Positions 230 to 20,990 of a DNA stretch of 44,582 nucleotides are shown here, one piece after another. A model generated the notes under the pieces. The model was not told where the DNA came from. It saw nothing but the letters and a program-made list of their open reading frames with translations, and did no database searches. This DNA comes from Bacteroidales bacterium. GTDB taxonomy: Bacteria > Bacteroidota > Bacteroidia > Bacteroidales > JAADJA01. The translations under genes were made by a program, and so were the position numbers. The stretch is from the NCBI GenBank assembly GCA_020438135.1, contig JAGQVF010000026.1:1-44582 (forward strand), given 5' to 3'. Position 1 is the first letter of the stretch, and each line of letters starts with the position of its first letter.

Positions 230-392
230 CAAAAAATGTGCTTCTTTGCCTATTTGCCTGAAACAACAATGAAATAATAGTAGTGAGAATTTTAAATCAG
301 CGGATTGATTAAATTAAAAGGAACTTTTCCGGGTGTTCTTTATAAAATTATTCCTTATCTTTAAAACGAATTTAAAACCAATTGAGATACCC

Positions 393-2495
393 ATGAGCAA
401 CTGGAACCGTTATCCTTTTGTTAGATTTATCATTCCTTTGGTTTCAGGCATTGTAGTTGCCCTGAACATACCTGAAATGTACCCCATACCTTTTTGGATA
501 ATGGTTGCTCTTTTTGGAATCTATGCCTTGATAGAACTTATTTTCAGGAAACAGATCAGTTACAGGTATAGATGGATTTTTGGGACGTTGTCCTCTTTTC
601 TGCTCCTTTTACTGGGATATCAATTAACCTATCTAAAAACTCCGTCCTACGATCCTGACAATATAAGCCATTTTAAGCAGGCGGATAAATTGGTTATTCA
701 GATAAAAGAACCTCCGGCAGAAAAACCCAATTCGGTTAAAGTAGTTGGCGGAGTGTTATTCGCTGCTGACACAACAGGCTGGGAAAAGGCATCGGGAACT
801 GTGCTGCTATATTTTGAAAAAGATGAGAACATAGATAACATCAGATATGGAGATGAGCTGGTAGTTCATACTCAACTCAGGCCGGTAAAACCTCCGGCTA
901 ATCCGGAAGAGTTTAACTACAAACGTTTTCTTTCAAATAAAGGGATTTATGATCAGGGATATGTTACAAAGGGAAACTGGAAAATCACCGGGCAGGGTTA
1001 TGGAAATCCAATCAAAAAAACAGGGATCAAACTAAGAGATCATTTCCTGCGATTACTGGAAGAAAATGATATTAAAGATAAAGAGTTTGCAGTAGTTTCG
1101 GCCATTTTACTGGGTTATGATGCCCATCTTGATCCGGAGCAAAAGCGTCAATTTGCAGGGGCGGGAGCCATGCATATACTTTGTGTTTCTGGTTTGCATG
1201 TTGGCATCATTTACGTAATATTAAACAGCTTGCTCGCTTTTTTGAACCGAAAAAAACTGCTTCGATTTTTAAAAGTATTGTTATTGCTTTTTTTAATTTG
1301 GTTTTATGCAGCTATCACAGGGTTTAGTCCATCAGTTCTGCGCGCATCCACTATGTTCTCATTTATCATCATCGGCAAATCAATGAAACGAAAAGCCGAT
1401 ATTTTTAATATGATCGCAGTTTCGGCATTTTTGCTGCTTTCGATCAATCCTTATTTTCTTACTGAGGTTGGGTTTCAACTTTCATACCTGGCTGTTACAG
1501 GAATTGTATTGTTATTCAAACCCATTTACAACCTGCTTTCACCCGGGAATTATTTACTTGATAAAATCTGGCAAATAACAGTTGTATCAATTGCCGCAAC
1601 TTTATTTACATTTCCACTGACAGTATTTTATTTTAAACAATTTCCGGTTTTGTTTTTAGTCACTAATTTGGTAGCAATTCCAGCTTCGATGGTTGTGATT
1701 TACCTGGGAATTTCCGTTCTGGTTTTTTCTTTCATCCCTGTTGTATCAAATTGGCTTGCTTGGTTACTGGTATGGACTATTAAAGCTTTGAATTTTTCAG
1801 TAGGATGGATTGAAGGTTTATCATTTGCTACCATTCGTGAAATGTATATAAGTCCGATGGAGTTTATTTTACTTGTGCTCGTAGTATTGTCGGTTGTTTA
1901 TTTATTTACCATTGGTAAAAAATATGCAATCTATACATTAATTTCCGGTTTGATCCTTCTCAATATCTCAATTCTGACCAGGAAGATAAATCATCTGAAG
2001 CAGAAACAAATTGTGGTATACAACATTAACAAAACAACGGCAATTGAATTTGTGAAGGGTGAAATGTCCTGGTTTGTGTCAGATACGAATGTAATAGCCG
2101 ATCCTTCAAAAATTCAATACAATGTTGAAGGATATAGAAGTAAGGCCGGAATAAAAGATCAATTTTGGGTTAATATGGATAAACCAATCCTCAAAACGCC
2201 CGATTTTTATAAAACAGGAGAGTTGATTCAATTTGGAGATCTGAGGATTGCTTTGATAAGCCACTCCTCAGAATTGTTACCCCTCAATAATAAATTGAGT
2301 GTGGATGTGGTGATTTTTACCGGGAATGCTCAAATTACGCCCAGGCAAGCCATGGAAGTTTTTCAGTTTGAGGAGCTGGTTTTCGATGCATCAATCGCGC
2401 CATGGAATAAAATCACCTGGAAAAAGGAATGTGACAATGCAGGGATCAATTATTACGATGTAGCAGAATATGGTGCATGGATAAAAAGATTATGA
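393..2495 (+). CDS. comEC: ComEC/Rec2-family DNA internalisation channel
   Basis: This is an inner-membrane protein of the ComEC/Rec2 family, which moves single-stranded DNA into the cytoplasm during natural transformation. The N-terminus has two or three membrane segments and a soluble DUF4131-type region (about residues 80-200). A competence domain with many membrane helices follows (about 230-520). It contains the family motif HILCVSGLHVG (261-271) and FSPSVLRAS (about 311-319). The C-terminal soluble part (about 545-700) has the place and size of the metallo-beta-lactamase-like domain but lacks an HxHxDH metal site. The frame could open at a GTG at 333, but the 20 extra residues are not family-like and the ATG at 393 starts the expected soluble-then-hydrophobic N-terminus. 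It is divergent from the upstream gene and convergent with the M28 peptidase. Confidence 0.9.
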   Translation: MSNWNRYPFVRFIIPLVSGIVVALNIPEMYPIPFWIMVALFGIYALIELIFRKQISYRYRWIFGTLSSFLLLLLGYQLTYLKTPSYDPDNISHFKQADKLVIQIKEPPAEKPNSVKVVGGVLFAADTTGWEKASGTVLLYFEKDENIDNIRYGDELVVHTQLRPVKPPANPEEFNYKRFLSNKGIYDQGYVTKGNWKITGQGYGNPIKKTGIKLRDHFLRLLEENDIKDKEFAVVSAILLGYDAHLDPEQKRQFAGAGAMHILCVSGLHVGIIYVILNSLLAFLNRKKLLRFLKVLLLLFLIWFYAAITGFSPSVLRASTMFSFIIIGKSMKRKADIFNMIAVSAFLLLSINPYFLTEVGFQLSYLAVTGIVLLFKPIYNLLSPGNYLLDKIWQITVVSIAATLFTFPLTVFYFKQFPVLFLVTNLVAIPASMVVIYLGISVLVFSFIPVVSNWLAWLLVWTIKALNFSVGWIEGLSFATIREMYISPMEFILLVLVVLSVVYLFTIGKKYAIYTLISGLILLNISILTRKINHLKQKQIVVYNINKTTAIEFVKGEMSWFVSDTNVIADPSKIQYNVEGYRSKAGIKDQFWVNMDKPILKTPDFYKTGELIQFGDLRIALISHSSELLPLNNKLSVDVVIFTGNAQITPRQAMEVFQFEELVFDASIAPWNKITWKKECDNAGINYYDVAEYGAWIKRL

Positions 2496-10120: not shown

Positions 10121-11554
10121 TTATTTCCTGAGTGAAGCATTTTCTGCTTTAAGCACTTCAACTTCAGATTGTAACTGTTTGATCATTTTCCCTTGTTCGA
10201 TGGTATAAAGGGTTAATTCTTCAACTTTTTCCAATACCCGTTTTTGCATATCGGAAATACTGAATCCTGTTTCTTCTACCTCCGTAGCAGGAGGAATTCC
10301 CGGAAGGTGATTTTTTTCGGTAATATGTTGTTCCAGTTCTTCGAGACTCATCAGGTCGTAAGAGGGATCAAAAACATAATCGGGCCAGCTACCGTTGTCC
10401 TGCACCAATACCTCTTCACAGGCGATTTTGCCATTAACGGATAATGCATATCCAACCGCTGCGGTTGTTGTTCCGATCCTGAGATCGCTACTTACATAAG
10501 CAGAACCGAGCATGTATGCCGCCCAGTTGGTTGTTCCACCACCAGCATATCCATATAATCCGACGCGTGTCCCATCAGTTCCATATGCATAACCATAAAC
10601 ACCCACTACTGTTCCGGTATAGGCACCACCGTTGCCATAACCGTATACTCCACGGTATCCGCCTTCTCCATAAACACCATAACCATAACCATCGACCGGG
10701 GTTGATTTACCATAAAAAGCTCTTGTATCTGAACTTATGTTATGTGTTACTTCAGAAACAACCACGTCCTGACTATAGTCACCGGCGTTATCCGTACTGT
10801 TGTTGTTGGCTTCAACATGAACACGTCCTTTGAAATATCCGGCATAGTTGGTGGTAGCACTGTCAGCATCTATATAAATACCGTAGTTTGTATTGGTGCT
10901 GACGCCCTGGGTAGCAAAGATACCAGCGTAGTTATTTGCATCCGTATCAACACTGTAGCCATAAATAGCGGCCCCTTCGAAACCGGAATTTGGTTTATAG
11001 CCAAAAACTCCGATATTGGGTACGTCAATGGGCAAAGCGAGTGGATTTCCTGTATAGTTCAGTAATCCAAGATGCCCTTCTGCAAAAAGCAAGGTGCCGC
11101 TTTGATCAGAACCTCTTACCGCTGATTTGCCATATGTGTAATTTTCCGAAGAAATGCCATGACCATTGGGATCATTTGTGCCAACAGCCACATGGCCAGT
11201 ATTGGTATTATAAATATCGGTTCCGTTTAAAGCCCAATGTTGGTCAGTTGCACGACCTACTTTCTGCCAGTCCGATCCATCGAAATAGTAGTATCCGGGA
11301 TCGTTGTTAGTTTGATAAATGATCAATCCGGTTGCCGGTGAAGCAGGCCTGTTCGCAAATGTCATCCGGGGAGCAAGCAATCCCAAACCGGTTGCCTTAA
11401 CATCCAGCATAGCAGATGCATTCGGCGAACTGTTATCATTGTTTATCGCTACCTGCGAATAGGAAAGCCCTGTAGTAAATACAAGCGTTACCAGTAAAAT
11501 AAACCATTTGTTCGGTTTATGAATACTTTTAAGAGTGAATAAATTTGAGTTCAT
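10121..11554 (-). CDS. Exported tail-fibre-like protein with C-terminal coiled coil
   Basis: This 477-residue protein has an N-terminal extension before the signal core (WFILLVTLVFTTGLSYSQ). Next comes a short head region (VAINNDNSSPNASAMLDV, with GLIIYQTNNDPGYYYFDGSDW at about 76-96) of the type that starts many Bacteroidota tail-fibre-domain proteins. The middle (about 140-370) is Gly/Tyr/Ala-rich with repeated YGVYGE, YGYGNG and AGIFAT segments, like trimeric beta-prism shafts. The C-terminus carries VNGKIACEEV, WPDYVF, LPGIPPATEVEETG and a coiled coil ending in ENASLRK, the usual terminal module of this family. It is first in a four-gene run that ends at 5308. The product is probably a trimeric fibre on the cell surface. 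Its partner is unknown, and nothing nearby suggests a phage. Confidence 0.82.
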   Translation of the reverse strand: MNSNLFTLKSIHKPNKWFILLVTLVFTTGLSYSQVAINNDNSSPNASAMLDVKATGLGLLAPRMTFANRPASPATGLIIYQTNNDPGYYYFDGSDWQKVGRATDQHWALNGTDIYNTNTGHVAVGTNDPNGHGISSENYTYGKSAVRGSDQSGTLLFAEGHLGLLNYTGNPLALPIDVPNIGVFGYKPNSGFEGAAIYGYSVDTDANNYAGIFATQGVSTNTNYGIYIDADSATTNYAGYFKGRVHVEANNNSTDNAGDYSQDVVVSEVTHNISSDTRAFYGKSTPVDGYGYGVYGEGGYRGVYGYGNGGAYTGTVVGVYGYAYGTDGTRVGLYGYAGGGTTNWAAYMLGSAYVSSDLRIGTTTAAVGYALSVNGKIACEEVLVQDNGSWPDYVFDPSYDLMSLEELEQHITEKNHLPGIPPATEVEETGFSISDMQKRVLEKVEELTLYTIEQGKMIKQLQSEVEVLKAENASLRK

Positions 11555-11596
11555 ACATTTAAGGTTTTAAGGATTAGTTTTAAAATTTGTGAAATA

Positions 11597-11604
11597 CAAA
11601 TATA
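11597..11604 (-). promoter_or_regulatory. Putative -7 box of the exported four-gene operon
   Basis: The plus strand reads CAAATATA, giving TATATTTG on the minus strand, an exact TAnnTTTG match 43 bases upstream of the ATG at 11554. No clear TTG -33 box is seen. It sits in the only long intergenic gap before the operon, which supports a role. Confidence 0.45.
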
Positions 11605-11756
11605 GAAATGATTATCTGGAATGATTCTAAATAAAATGTTAATGAAATGTTAACCCTTGAAAGGTGTACAACTTTGTGATGCAGCTTAAGGTCTTACAAG
11701 GTTTTAATTTTGAGTAAGACAGATTTGGAAAATGGCATCTGATCAGAAAAGGGAAT

Positions 11757-17974: not shown

Positions 17975-18844
17975 ATGAAAAAGAACCTGATTATATGGCT
18001 GCTGCTGCCATGGCTGACATTTCTGACTTACGATTTATCGTCTCAATCGCTATATCGGGCTGTAACCGGAAGTCGTTCAGTGGCGCTGGGAAATTCCGGC
18101 GTGGCTCTCAACGATTCATGGGCATTGTTCAACAACCAGGCTGGCATTGTTGCATCCGACGGTATGATGGCTATGGCAGACTGGCAAAATCGATTTCTGG
18201 TTAATGGACTATCACAAAATAGTGTTGGTCTTCTTTTTCCGGTTGGATCCGGTACTTTGGGAACGGGGCTTCAATATTTCGGTTACGAATTATACAATGA
18301 AAGTAAGTTGGGGATAGCTTACGCTAAACGATTGGGCGAAAATAGTTCGGCTGGTCTGCAACTTGATTATTTTAACAGACACATAGCCGAAGGTTATGGA
18401 AATGCCGGTGCGATTACTTTCGAAATCGGATTTATTTCAAAACTGAATGATGTGCTTACAGTAGGCGTTCATGTTTTTAATCCGATACAGGCTAAATATT
18501 CAGGATCAACGGATGAGAAAATCCCTTCTGTGTTTGTGGTAGGTTTGGTTTACAAAATCGACGAATCATTGCTTATTACAGCAGAAACAGAAAAAAACAT
18601 GAATTTCAAACCGCTGATACGCACAGGGTTTGAGTACGAAGTGGTTGAGAAAGTAGCAGTGCGCATCGGGTTTTCGACACAACCTGCCCGAACCGGCTCT
18701 GAAAGTTTTTCCGCAGCAAATATGTATACTTTCGGATTTGGTTATCAACTCGACCGTTTAATTGTCAATATTGCTGCATCTGTACACCAGGTGCTGGGCT
18801 GGTCACCCGGAGTTTCACTAAGCTATGCGTTTACCCGTAAGTAA
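17975..18844 (+). CDS. PorV/FadL-like outer-membrane beta-barrel protein
   Basis: This 289-residue protein has a signal peptide MKKNLIIWLLLPWLTFL, with cleavage near LSSQ (residue 24). The mature protein consists of alternating hydrophobic strands typical of an outer-membrane barrel. It starts with the PorV/PorQ-type pattern SRSVALGNSGVALNDSWALFNNQAG (residues about 33-57). It ends in VSLSYAFTRK, an aromatic final strand. The frame extends 21 residues upstream, but the signal peptide fixes the ATG at 17975. The stop is 7 bases before the helix-hairpin-helix gene, so the two are co-transcribed. PorV-family barrels serve in T9SS cargo shuttling and FadL relatives in hydrophobic uptake. Which applies here is not known. 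Confidence 0.83.
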   Translation: MKKNLIIWLLLPWLTFLTYDLSSQSLYRAVTGSRSVALGNSGVALNDSWALFNNQAGIVASDGMMAMADWQNRFLVNGLSQNSVGLLFPVGSGTLGTGLQYFGYELYNESKLGIAYAKRLGENSSAGLQLDYFNRHIAEGYGNAGAITFEIGFISKLNDVLTVGVHVFNPIQAKYSGSTDEKIPSVFVVGLVYKIDESLLITAETEKNMNFKPLIRTGFEYEVVEKVAVRIGFSTQPARTGSESFSAANMYTFGFGYQLDRLIVNIAASVHQVLGWSPGVSLSYAFTRK

Positions 18845-18851
18845 TTTGTAA

Positions 18852-20990
18852 ATGAAGGGTCTACCCAAATATGTAACGGTATGTTTATTTTGCAGTGTTC
18901 AGTTTTTCTTGCATGTAAATGCGCAGGATACCGCCTTTATGAATCGGTTAACAGAACAGGATCTGCGGGACCGTATAGAAGTGATTGCCGGAGAAACTGA
19001 TGCAGAGCTCGACTTTTCAGAATTGATCGAAAATCTTCGTTATTATCAGGAAAATCCGCTTAACCTCAATACCGCTAATTACGACGATCTCATCAAGATC
19101 ATTTTTCTGAATGATATGCAAGTATTCAATATCCTTGCCTACAGGGAGTCATTTGGTGCATTCTCAACCCTTTATGAATTGTCAGCCATCGATGGATTGG
19201 ATGAGGCTACCATACGTAATATATTACCCTTTGTTGAAATTGGCACAGTGGCAAAAACCAGCCGGATTTCAATTCTTAAACTGATAAAAAAAGGGAAACA
19301 TCAGGTGATAGGACGATATCAGCAAATTTTGCAGGAAAAACACGGTTACGCTTCTCTGCCTGATTCGGTTTGGCATTCAAGACCAGGTTCTCACTACCTG
19401 GGAACCCCTGAAAAGATCTATACCCGCTATGGGTTTAATGCCTATAATAAACTCCGAATTGGTTTCACAGCTGAAAAAGACCCGGGCGAACCTTTGTTTA
19501 ACAATATCAATAATGATTCTATCCGATCCCTCATTGGCAAACCGGTCAAGAAGAACTTTGACTTTTTGTCTTATCATATGGGATTATATGATTGGGGTTT
19601 TGTAAAAGCTTTAACTATAGGCGATTATCAATTGCGTTTTGGTCAGGGTTTGACAATGTGGAGTGGACTGGCATTTGGAAAATCGTCTGCGATTAATGAT
19701 ACTAAAAAAAGTCCTCAGGGTATAAGCCCATACACCTCTTCGGATGAAAACCGGTTTTTCAGGGGTGCGGCAACTACTTTACGCATTGAGAGATTGGATT
19801 TTACGGCATTTTATTCCAGCAATCGAATTGATGGCACTCAGGATGGAAGTGATTCATTATCCCGGGATGAATTTTATATTTCCTCTTTACAGGAATCAGG
19901 TTTGCACCGTACGTTTTCGGAATATGCCAAAAAAGATGAAGTTGTCATGGTTGTTTATGGTGGCAACATCGGTTACAGAGGTAAACAATTTTCAATTGGT
20001 GTAACAGGGTTCAAAACAAAATTTGAAAATCAGGTTGATCTGTCAGGTGAATTGTATAACCGGTTCTATTTCTCTGGTAAAGAGAATCTGAACGGCGGAT
20101 TTGACTACAGGTATTTACTCGGAAAATATAACCTTTTCGGTGAAGTTTCATACAGCAAAAACGGGGGCTATGCAGTTTTGCAAGGTTTTTCGGCCAACCT
20201 GCATACCCGGTTGTTTATCACTTTGCTCTATAGAAATTACAGGAAAGATTATGTAAACTTTTTCAGCAATCCATTTGCCGAAAGCAACACTTTTAATGAA
20301 GAAGGTTTATATGCTGGTATCAAATACAGCCTGGCACCCGGTTGGAGTTTATCTGCTTATGCTGACCATTTTTATTATCCCTGGTTGAGATATTATACCG
20401 ATAAACCTTCTCACGGCTCAGACTATATGGTGCAGGCTGATCATATACCGGCAAAAAACCTGAGCATGTATTTCAGAATTAAGTTGAAGCAAACACCTGT
20501 TAATAATACAAAGTTGGAGGCATTTACGGCTCCGGTTGTCTTTACAAGAAAACAAAGCGTTAGATATGTGGTTGGTTACGAAGTGCTTCCGGGTTTCTTT
20601 ATGAAAGATCGAATTGAATTTTTAACTTATCGTGAAGATAACGATTACCGGGGAACCGGGTTTTTAATGAGTCACGATATCAACTGGCAGTTGCCGGAGA
20701 ACAAAGTTGCATTTTATTTCAGATTTGCATTGTTCGACACCGATTCATACGACGAACGGATCTATGCATATGAAAGCGACATGTTGTACGCTTTTTCAGT
20801 ACCTGCATATTATTATCGCGGAAGCAAGATATATTTGATGTTACGATACAAACCATTGTCGTACTTAACTATTTGGGCACGGTTTTCTCACATCTGGTTA
20901 ACCGATAGAAATAATTTCGGGTCGGGAAATGAAATGATCGATGGAAATAAAAAATCAGAAATGAAGGTACAGGTAATGTTTAAGCTTTGA
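18852..20990 (+). CDS. ComEA-like helix-hairpin-helix protein with C-terminal outer-membrane barrel
   Basis: This 712-residue protein has a signal peptide ending near NAQ (residue 25). Residues about 68-130 hold helix-hairpin-helix repeats of ComEA type (NPLNLNTANYDDLIKI, YRESFGAFSTLYELSAIDGL), which bind DNA non-specifically in competence proteins. From about residue 150 to the end the sequence is beta-rich, with alternating aromatic strands (WGFVKALTIGDYQLRFGQG, YLTIWARFSHIWL). It ends with the charged strand MKVQVMFKL, as in outer-membrane barrels. Its 7-base spacing from the PorV-like gene shows an operon. It converges with the DEAD-box helicase gene at a 16-base gap. A plausible role is DNA or polymer handling at the outer membrane; this is inference from the domain pair. 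Confidence 0.85.
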   Translation: MKGLPKYVTVCLFCSVQFFLHVNAQDTAFMNRLTEQDLRDRIEVIAGETDAELDFSELIENLRYYQENPLNLNTANYDDLIKIIFLNDMQVFNILAYRESFGAFSTLYELSAIDGLDEATIRNILPFVEIGTVAKTSRISILKLIKKGKHQVIGRYQQILQEKHGYASLPDSVWHSRPGSHYLGTPEKIYTRYGFNAYNKLRIGFTAEKDPGEPLFNNINNDSIRSLIGKPVKKNFDFLSYHMGLYDWGFVKALTIGDYQLRFGQGLTMWSGLAFGKSSAINDTKKSPQGISPYTSSDENRFFRGAATTLRIERLDFTAFYSSNRIDGTQDGSDSLSRDEFYISSLQESGLHRTFSEYAKKDEVVMVVYGGNIGYRGKQFSIGVTGFKTKFENQVDLSGELYNRFYFSGKENLNGGFDYRYLLGKYNLFGEVSYSKNGGYAVLQGFSANLHTRLFITLLYRNYRKDYVNFFSNPFAESNTFNEEGLYAGIKYSLAPGWSLSAYADHFYYPWLRYYTDKPSHGSDYMVQADHIPAKNLSMYFRIKLKQTPVNNTKLEAFTAPVVFTRKQSVRYVVGYEVLPGFFMKDRIEFLTYREDNDYRGTGFLMSHDINWQLPENKVAFYFRFALFDTDSYDERIYAYESDMLYAFSVPAYYYRGSKIYLMLRYKPLSYLTIWARFSHIWLTDRNNFGSGNEMIDGNKKSEMKVQVMFKL

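Follow-up and report, generated by a model that had tools for sequence, protein, structure and literature searches.

A PorV-like protein and a predicted 24-strand helix-hairpin-helix barrel encoded as a gene pair: a possible outer-membrane DNA-uptake route in Bacteroidota

A gene pair noted in a Bacteroidales genome (contig JAGQVF010000026.1, of which the whole 44,582-nucleotide stretch analysed is referred to as the window) encodes a small PorV/FadL-like outer-membrane protein and, directly behind it, a large protein in which a helix-hairpin-helix (HhH) domain is joined to a predicted 24-strand barrel. As modelled, the large barrel is a candidate for a widespread outer-membrane channel of Bacteroidota. 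The reading developed here, which is tentative and held with confidence somewhat short of even, is that this barrel may serve as an outer-membrane DNA-uptake channel feeding ComEC, with the PorV-like protein as an accessory dependent on the type IX secretion system (T9SS). Direct support was obtained for the gene pair, the predicted folds, the position of comEC downstream of the barrel in one family, the absence of secretin matches from barrel-bearing genomes of the window's class and the independence of the barrel from T9SS. A search of the open-access literature, with subscription papers outside its scope, found no publication on this gene pair and no test of the family for DNA transport, DNA binding or transformation; likewise, the accessible sections of papers on type IV filament and ComEC evolution (PMC6668835, PMC6299819) contained nothing on this barrel. 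With a gene pair that can be knocked out and that is operon-like with comEC in one family, the outer-membrane crossing of DNA in Bacteroidota becomes directly testable, which bears on how genes, those for resistance among them, are exchanged by soil-dwelling and host-associated Bacteroidota. The features concerned are as follows.

17975..18844, + strand: PorV/FadL-like 14-strand outer-membrane protein, 289 aa, ATG at 17975 (NF033709, AF2 model)
18845..18851, + strand: intergenic gap of 7 bp (sequence)
18852..20990, + strand: HhH outer-membrane barrel protein, 712 aa (PF12836, AF2 model, family matches)
18852..18926, + strand: putative N-terminal export signal, residues 1-25 (hydrophobic start, alignments)
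19053..19235, + strand: HhH (HHH_3) domain, residues 68-128 (PF12836; without GxG; net charge -6)
19296..20987, + strand: predicted 24-strand barrel, residues 149-712 (AF2 model, DSSP)
333..2495, + strand: ComEC (DUF4131 + Competence), 720 aa (open reading frame; PF03772 1.9e-57), not adjacent to the barrel

The first-pass annotation had described a PorV/FadL-like gene followed after 7 bases by a gene for an HhH region fused to a predicted outer-membrane barrel, and this description held. Thus, both open reading frames were intact and co-directional, and PF12836 matched the second protein (3.1e-11, above its cut-off) ahead of the modelled barrel. Single-chain AF2 predictions, which had been suggested for both proteins, gave a 14-strand FadL-type barrel for the PorV-like protein (pLDDT 91.6, alignment of 74 sequences) and a 24-strand barrel for the HhH protein (pLDDT 88.5, pTM 0.86, alignment of 80 sequences), the latter strand number being a hand count from the model's DSSP string (residues 149-711). 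Pairing of the two genes cannot be put down to chance, since 95 of 110 barrel loci, that of the window among them, had a co-directional PorV-like gene immediately upstream, as did 74 of 80 named loci; in most relatives the two genes overlapped or nearly touched. Residue Q25 of the barrel protein was conserved in at least 90% of sequences in two alignments.

In the model of the large barrel, long loops on one face alternated with turns of 2-5 residues on the opposite face, so that both ends of the protein and its HhH domain should, on this model, lie on the periplasmic side. Pore-facing residues, assigned by a hydrophobicity heuristic, carried a net positive charge in each of 80 barrels as opposed to 12 of 74 PorV-like proteins, which served as the control; such a lining suits a polyanion and is no proof of one. 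Usher pores such as FimD and PapC have 24 strands, as is predicted here, and in VIA comparisons these ushers were among the best overlays that reached the C-terminus of the model (359-380 residues, 3.8-5.4 Å, Z 13.9-14.7). Identity to the ushers was 9-12%, and TonB-dependent receptors overlaid the barrel almost equally well (PirA, Z 13.8, 365 residues, 4.0 Å); moreover, no usher sequence family was found among the Pfam matches of the barrel protein up to E 10. Wzi, AlgE, OprD-type porins, ushers and TonB-dependent receptors all fell in the Z range 13.5-16 with the HhH part barely covered, and sequence identity was 7-14% among the 50 VIA matches listed. A Foldseek search found no close relative beyond generic barrels, the best match being the Mtr complex at TM 0.39.

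The highest Z scores in the VIA comparisons were those of the polysaccharide proteins Wzi (16.1) and AlgE (15.4), with about 300 residues aligned at 5.7-6.2 Å. These scores favour a somewhat unlikely alternative, namely that the barrel is an outer-membrane transporter of another polymer or of lipid, or an envelope-biogenesis factor, and that the position of comEC beside it in one family is accidental, like that of purE. The wide distribution of the barrel also suits a general envelope function. Thus, single-sequence search at E<=1e-5 gave matches in 220 of the 296 Bacteroidota genomes sampled (201 at E<=1e-20, length being unchecked for the 19 matches above this value), and a profile search of 40 barrel-negative genomes, 33 outside and 7 inside the window's class, added approximately 10 divergent barrels, all outside the class. 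Against a general envelope function, none of the 35 genomes sampled from families f5 (6 genomes) and f6 (29 genomes), all of which had ComEC, contained a barrel match, 4 of them having also been searched by profile. (Codes f3, f4, f5, f6, f18, f24 and f38 denote families, and the prefixes G, L and g denote genomes, loci and genera.)

The motif of DNA-binding HhH domains is GxG in the hairpins. The HhH region of the window had been called DNA-binding in type, and this was not sustained, in that neither hairpin carried GxG and the domain was acidic (-6). GxG was found in neither hairpin of any of the 108 barrels tallied (the window, 80 named and 27 of f3), and mean net charge of the domain was about -3 in the named and f3 sets. 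At 36 further loci, GxG or GxN occurred at none in the first hairpin and at 3 in the second. Both hairpins kept GxG or GxN in 10 of 10 HhH domains of the f24 type, and the domain was neutral or positive at 15 of 18 f18 loci. A role of the domain as DNA grip was not supported by the tally of 108, by the 36 further loci or by the acidity in the window; judged by sequence, the HhH appears to be conserved as a fold and is unlikely to grip DNA in this barrel protein.

The barrel protein resembles ComEA in having an HHH_3 domain but differs in that this domain lies within a barrel protein, is acidic and is without GxG, and in that a separate ComEA-like protein is present in the same genome. Identity of the barrel protein with ComEA was rejected from its TIGR01259 score (22.7 bits as opposed to a cut-off of 152). 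The separate protein, which is membrane-anchored, 378 aa long and carries four HHH_3 domains (L003:859-1995, contig C297), is likely the ComEA equivalent. It resembles RA0C_RS02645 of Riemerella anatipestifer, listed as essential for transformation in the accessible sections of PMC8459023, in having several HhH domains, a likeness drawn from domains. HhH-only matches in open reading frames of approximately 220-430 aa also recurred in families f3 and f4.

The smaller protein of the pair matched the PorV family model NF033709 at 9e-18 and 64.9 bits, below the curated cut-off of 90 bits, and the same model was matched by 73 of 74 PorV-like relatives at E<=1e-3. The best PDB match of its structure model was 6h3i_F, a T9SS translocon entry (TMq 0.75), with FadL entries at 0.66-0.74. 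Assignment as the T9SS PorV equivalog (NF033710, 15.6 bits) or as BamG (NF053685, 23 bits) was rejected, the cut-off being 250 bits in each case. The arrangement resembles those of PorV with SprA and of BamG with BamA, in which, according to the accessible sections of PMC10994853 and PMC12611786, a FadL-type 14-strand barrel encoded beside a large partner barrel is proposed to sit on it. It differs from both in that the partner is here a predicted 24-strand HhH barrel and in that the small protein fell well short of the cut-offs for PorV and for BamG. By analogy with these pairs, the PorV-like protein may keep a surface partner, delivered by T9SS, in place on the channel.

Comparison with the distribution of SprA, which was found in 227 of 296 genomes, separated the two members of the pair. 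Thus, a PorV-like gene, counted next to the barrel only, was present at 37 of 49 SprA-positive loci as opposed to 0 of 21 SprA-negative loci, the latter being 18 of family f18 plus G230, G238 and G002 and so representing three lineages only, whereas 68 of the 69 genomes without SprA had the barrel itself and 75 of the 227 with SprA did not. These findings indicate that the small PorV-like barrel is T9SS-linked and that the large barrel is not. At 20 loci from 13 further families, a PorV-like gene was adjacent in 12 (10 by a stricter rule), including 0 of 4 f18 loci among them. The membership of the small protein in the PorV family and its adjacency at SprA-positive loci would fit a T9SS-allied secretion or surface-assembly module in which a PorV-like carrier serves a second, specialised translocon barrel. 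The same holds for a divergent PorD-like gene noted upstream at 21 of 49 loci searched (L005-L033 and L290-L309), a count limited by the short upstream stretches of approximately 1.4 kb in L005-L033. Such a module is unlikely, however, given the retention of the barrel in nearly all SprA-negative genomes, from which the barrel was also rejected as a T9SS component. One PorD-like gene that was scanned matched NF052317 at 239 bits, and no divergent PorD-like gene was found at 80 named and 64 f3 loci. PorD is described in the accessible sections of PMC10994853 as a T9SS translocon protein whose deletion in F. johnsoniae had no detectable effect.

The presence of comEC in the window, from which a role in DNA transport had been proposed in part, was confirmed as an intact open reading frame, but 16,356 bp separate this gene from the barrel and ComEC was found in 288 of 296 genomes. 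ComEC was absent from 1 of 220 barrel-positive as opposed to 7 of 76 barrel-negative genomes, and those 7 were the genomes sampled from a single family (f38, 7 of 7 without ComEC and without barrel, the barrel having been sought by profile as well). Thus, co-occurrence of the barrel with comEC, which had been suggested as a check, said little because ComEC is near-universal and the double negatives came from one family.

A link between the two genes was noted instead in family f3, of the same class as the window, where 57 of 65 barrels (19 genera) had a co-directional comEC directly downstream, with gaps of -74 to 62 bp (median 1) and where a PorV-like gene preceded the barrel at 53 of 65 loci. 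This set comprised the full or nearly full barrels from 81 genomes, 4 genomes with partial barrels and 12 without barrel being left out. Six of the 8 exceptions to the comEC layout belonged to genus g221 and the others were G422 and G417, while in G002 the barrel-comEC layout was kept without an adjacent PorV-like gene and without SprA. The same order of PorV-like gene, barrel and comEC was seen at one named locus, L089 (Sphingobacteriales), and barrel-comEC adjacency was found at none of the other loci examined; with no occurrence outside one family apart from L089, the layout may reflect a single event.

Other fixed neighbours of the barrel were noted as well, and these neighbourhoods conflicted between clades. 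In 25 named loci, purE lay upstream of the pair (position -2 of the barrel) on the same strand with gaps of -1 to 295 bp (median 74). Both purE and PorD, as alternative fixed neighbours, add to the case for transport of another polymer or an envelope function, whereas the far tighter gaps to comEC, with a median of 1 bp at 57 of 65 loci, count against regarding the two neighbours as equivalent.

Further evidence that bears on DNA uptake came from the distribution of secretins. Among 73 genomes of the window's class, secretin PF00263 was found in 0 of 30 barrel-bearing as opposed to 10 of 43 barrel-negative genomes (p=0.004, uncorrected for kinship), and no match was found in the window's own genome, which is 86% complete. 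Outside this class, 116 of 190 barrel-bearing genomes had secretin, and over all 296 genomes secretin was present in 140, of which 116 were among the 220 with the barrel and 24 among the 76 without it. The secretin gap is thus class-specific. Together with the f3 layout, this gap lends partial support to a link of the barrel to DNA import, although on grounds other than those of the first-pass annotation: the proposal of the pair as an outer-membrane DNA entry or exit point had been based on the HhH type and on comEC in the window, both of which failed as grounds, and the PorV-like member follows T9SS rather than ComEC.

In Riemerella anatipestifer, deletion of either RA0C_RS04915 or RA0C_RS04920 reduced transformation below detection, according to the accessible sections of PMC8459023. 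From the distribution given in those sections, f5 and f6 are probably Weeksellaceae and Flavobacteriaceae, and the barrel would be dispensable in these ComEC-bearing, barrel-less families if they transform as Riemerella does. Queries for RS04915-like genes were candidate homologues from f5 and f6 picked by domains and adjacency, not by Riemerella sequence; those scanned carried CarboxypepD_reg, with a weak match to a TonB-receptor plug in 1 of 2, and their partner carried DUF5689. At a threshold of at least 385 bits, 46 strong matches were noted among 296 genomes, all in the window's class; another 44 genomes had weaker matches, to a limit of 1e-15, and these were dropped. The RS04915-like gene was present in 34 of 35 f5 and f6 genomes. 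Of the 73 class genomes, 69 had a barrel, an RS04915-like gene or both (barrel only 23, RS04915-like only 39, both 7, the window's own genome included), and 4 had neither.

A similar pattern appeared in f4, where 35 of 88 genomes had the barrel, 41 the RS04915-like gene, 3 both and 15 neither (Fisher 3e-9; RS04915-like genes counted at E<=1e-60, G351, with its HhH-only match, scored as lacking the barrel and G324, whose match holds 13 TGA codons in frame, as having it). On an rpoB tree of 84 f4 genomes (of the other 4, 3 gave no rpoB match and 1 only a fragment), the barrel required 8 changes and the RS04915-like gene 15, with a split mostly between clades, and an independent-pair test on this tree gave a median p of 1, too few pairs being available for adequate power. 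Replacement of the barrel by the RS04915-like gene is therefore a suggestive, clade-level pattern. The Riemerella system resembles the pair studied here in combining an outer-membrane protein with a partner and in its complementary distribution within the class; it differs in that the homologues carry other domains with no HhH match and in that a homologue is also present in the window's own genome. That homologue (G000:C138:2198-4603, 5e-200) may represent a second route. RS04915-like genes were located away from comEC, beside DUF5689, and inspection by eye of the regions around comEC in 11 barrel-negative genomes showed no RS04915/04920-like pair. Endonuclease/exonuclease/phosphatase-family genes were noted near the RS04915/04920-like pair in 4 of 5 regions and are candidates for the nuclease of the Riemerella model.

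L137:10386-11585: endonuclease/exonuclease/phosphatase-family gene (PF19580 4.4e-93)
L138:10208-11407, L140:4429-5397 and 10578-11660, L141:2510-3730: endonuclease/exonuclease/phosphatase-like genes (sequence resemblance only)

On the reading favoured here, DNA that is taken up would cross the outer membrane by way of the HhH barrel, if not in general then in secretin-less Bacteroidota of the window's class. It would enter through the wide, basic 24-strand pore, which would have to open for its passage, and in the periplasm would pass to the ComEA-like protein, membrane-anchored and with several HhH domains, and from there to ComEC. The HhH at the periplasmic mouth of the pore would act as a structural or docking domain rather than as a DNA grip. 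The PorV-like protein would bind the flank of the barrel, much as SprA is bound by PorV and BamA by BamG, and might hold the surface partner proposed above in species with T9SS. A more elaborate and rather improbable version would have secretin-less Bacteroidota using a private DNA gate of this kind, in which docking of a T9SS-delivered surface protein by the PorV-like partner couples DNA uptake to T9SS and which an RA0C_RS04915-type receptor has replaced clade by clade.

Release of DNA, or its uptake as food instead of for transformation, would draw on the same genomic evidence, and ComEC alone is no proof of transformation; F. johnsoniae was reported, in the accessible sections of PMC7965970, not to be competent under the conditions used. 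This alternative is very improbable: ComEC is an importer, and no export gene was seen among the recurring neighbours listed.

Several barrel loci departed from the usual form. In genus g3 of family f3, the barrel matches at L202, L203 and L205 were broken by a stop codon in frame or by a split of the frame and are possibly decaying, and 5 of 7 loci in this genus were without an adjacent PorV-like gene. The match at G324:C1:833119-834852, with its 13 in-frame TGA codons, represents either a decayed gene or an assembly problem. Unusual lengths were noted at L305 and L307, where the PorV-like match lay inside an 879-aa open reading frame and the barrel open reading frame was 1042 aa long, respectively.
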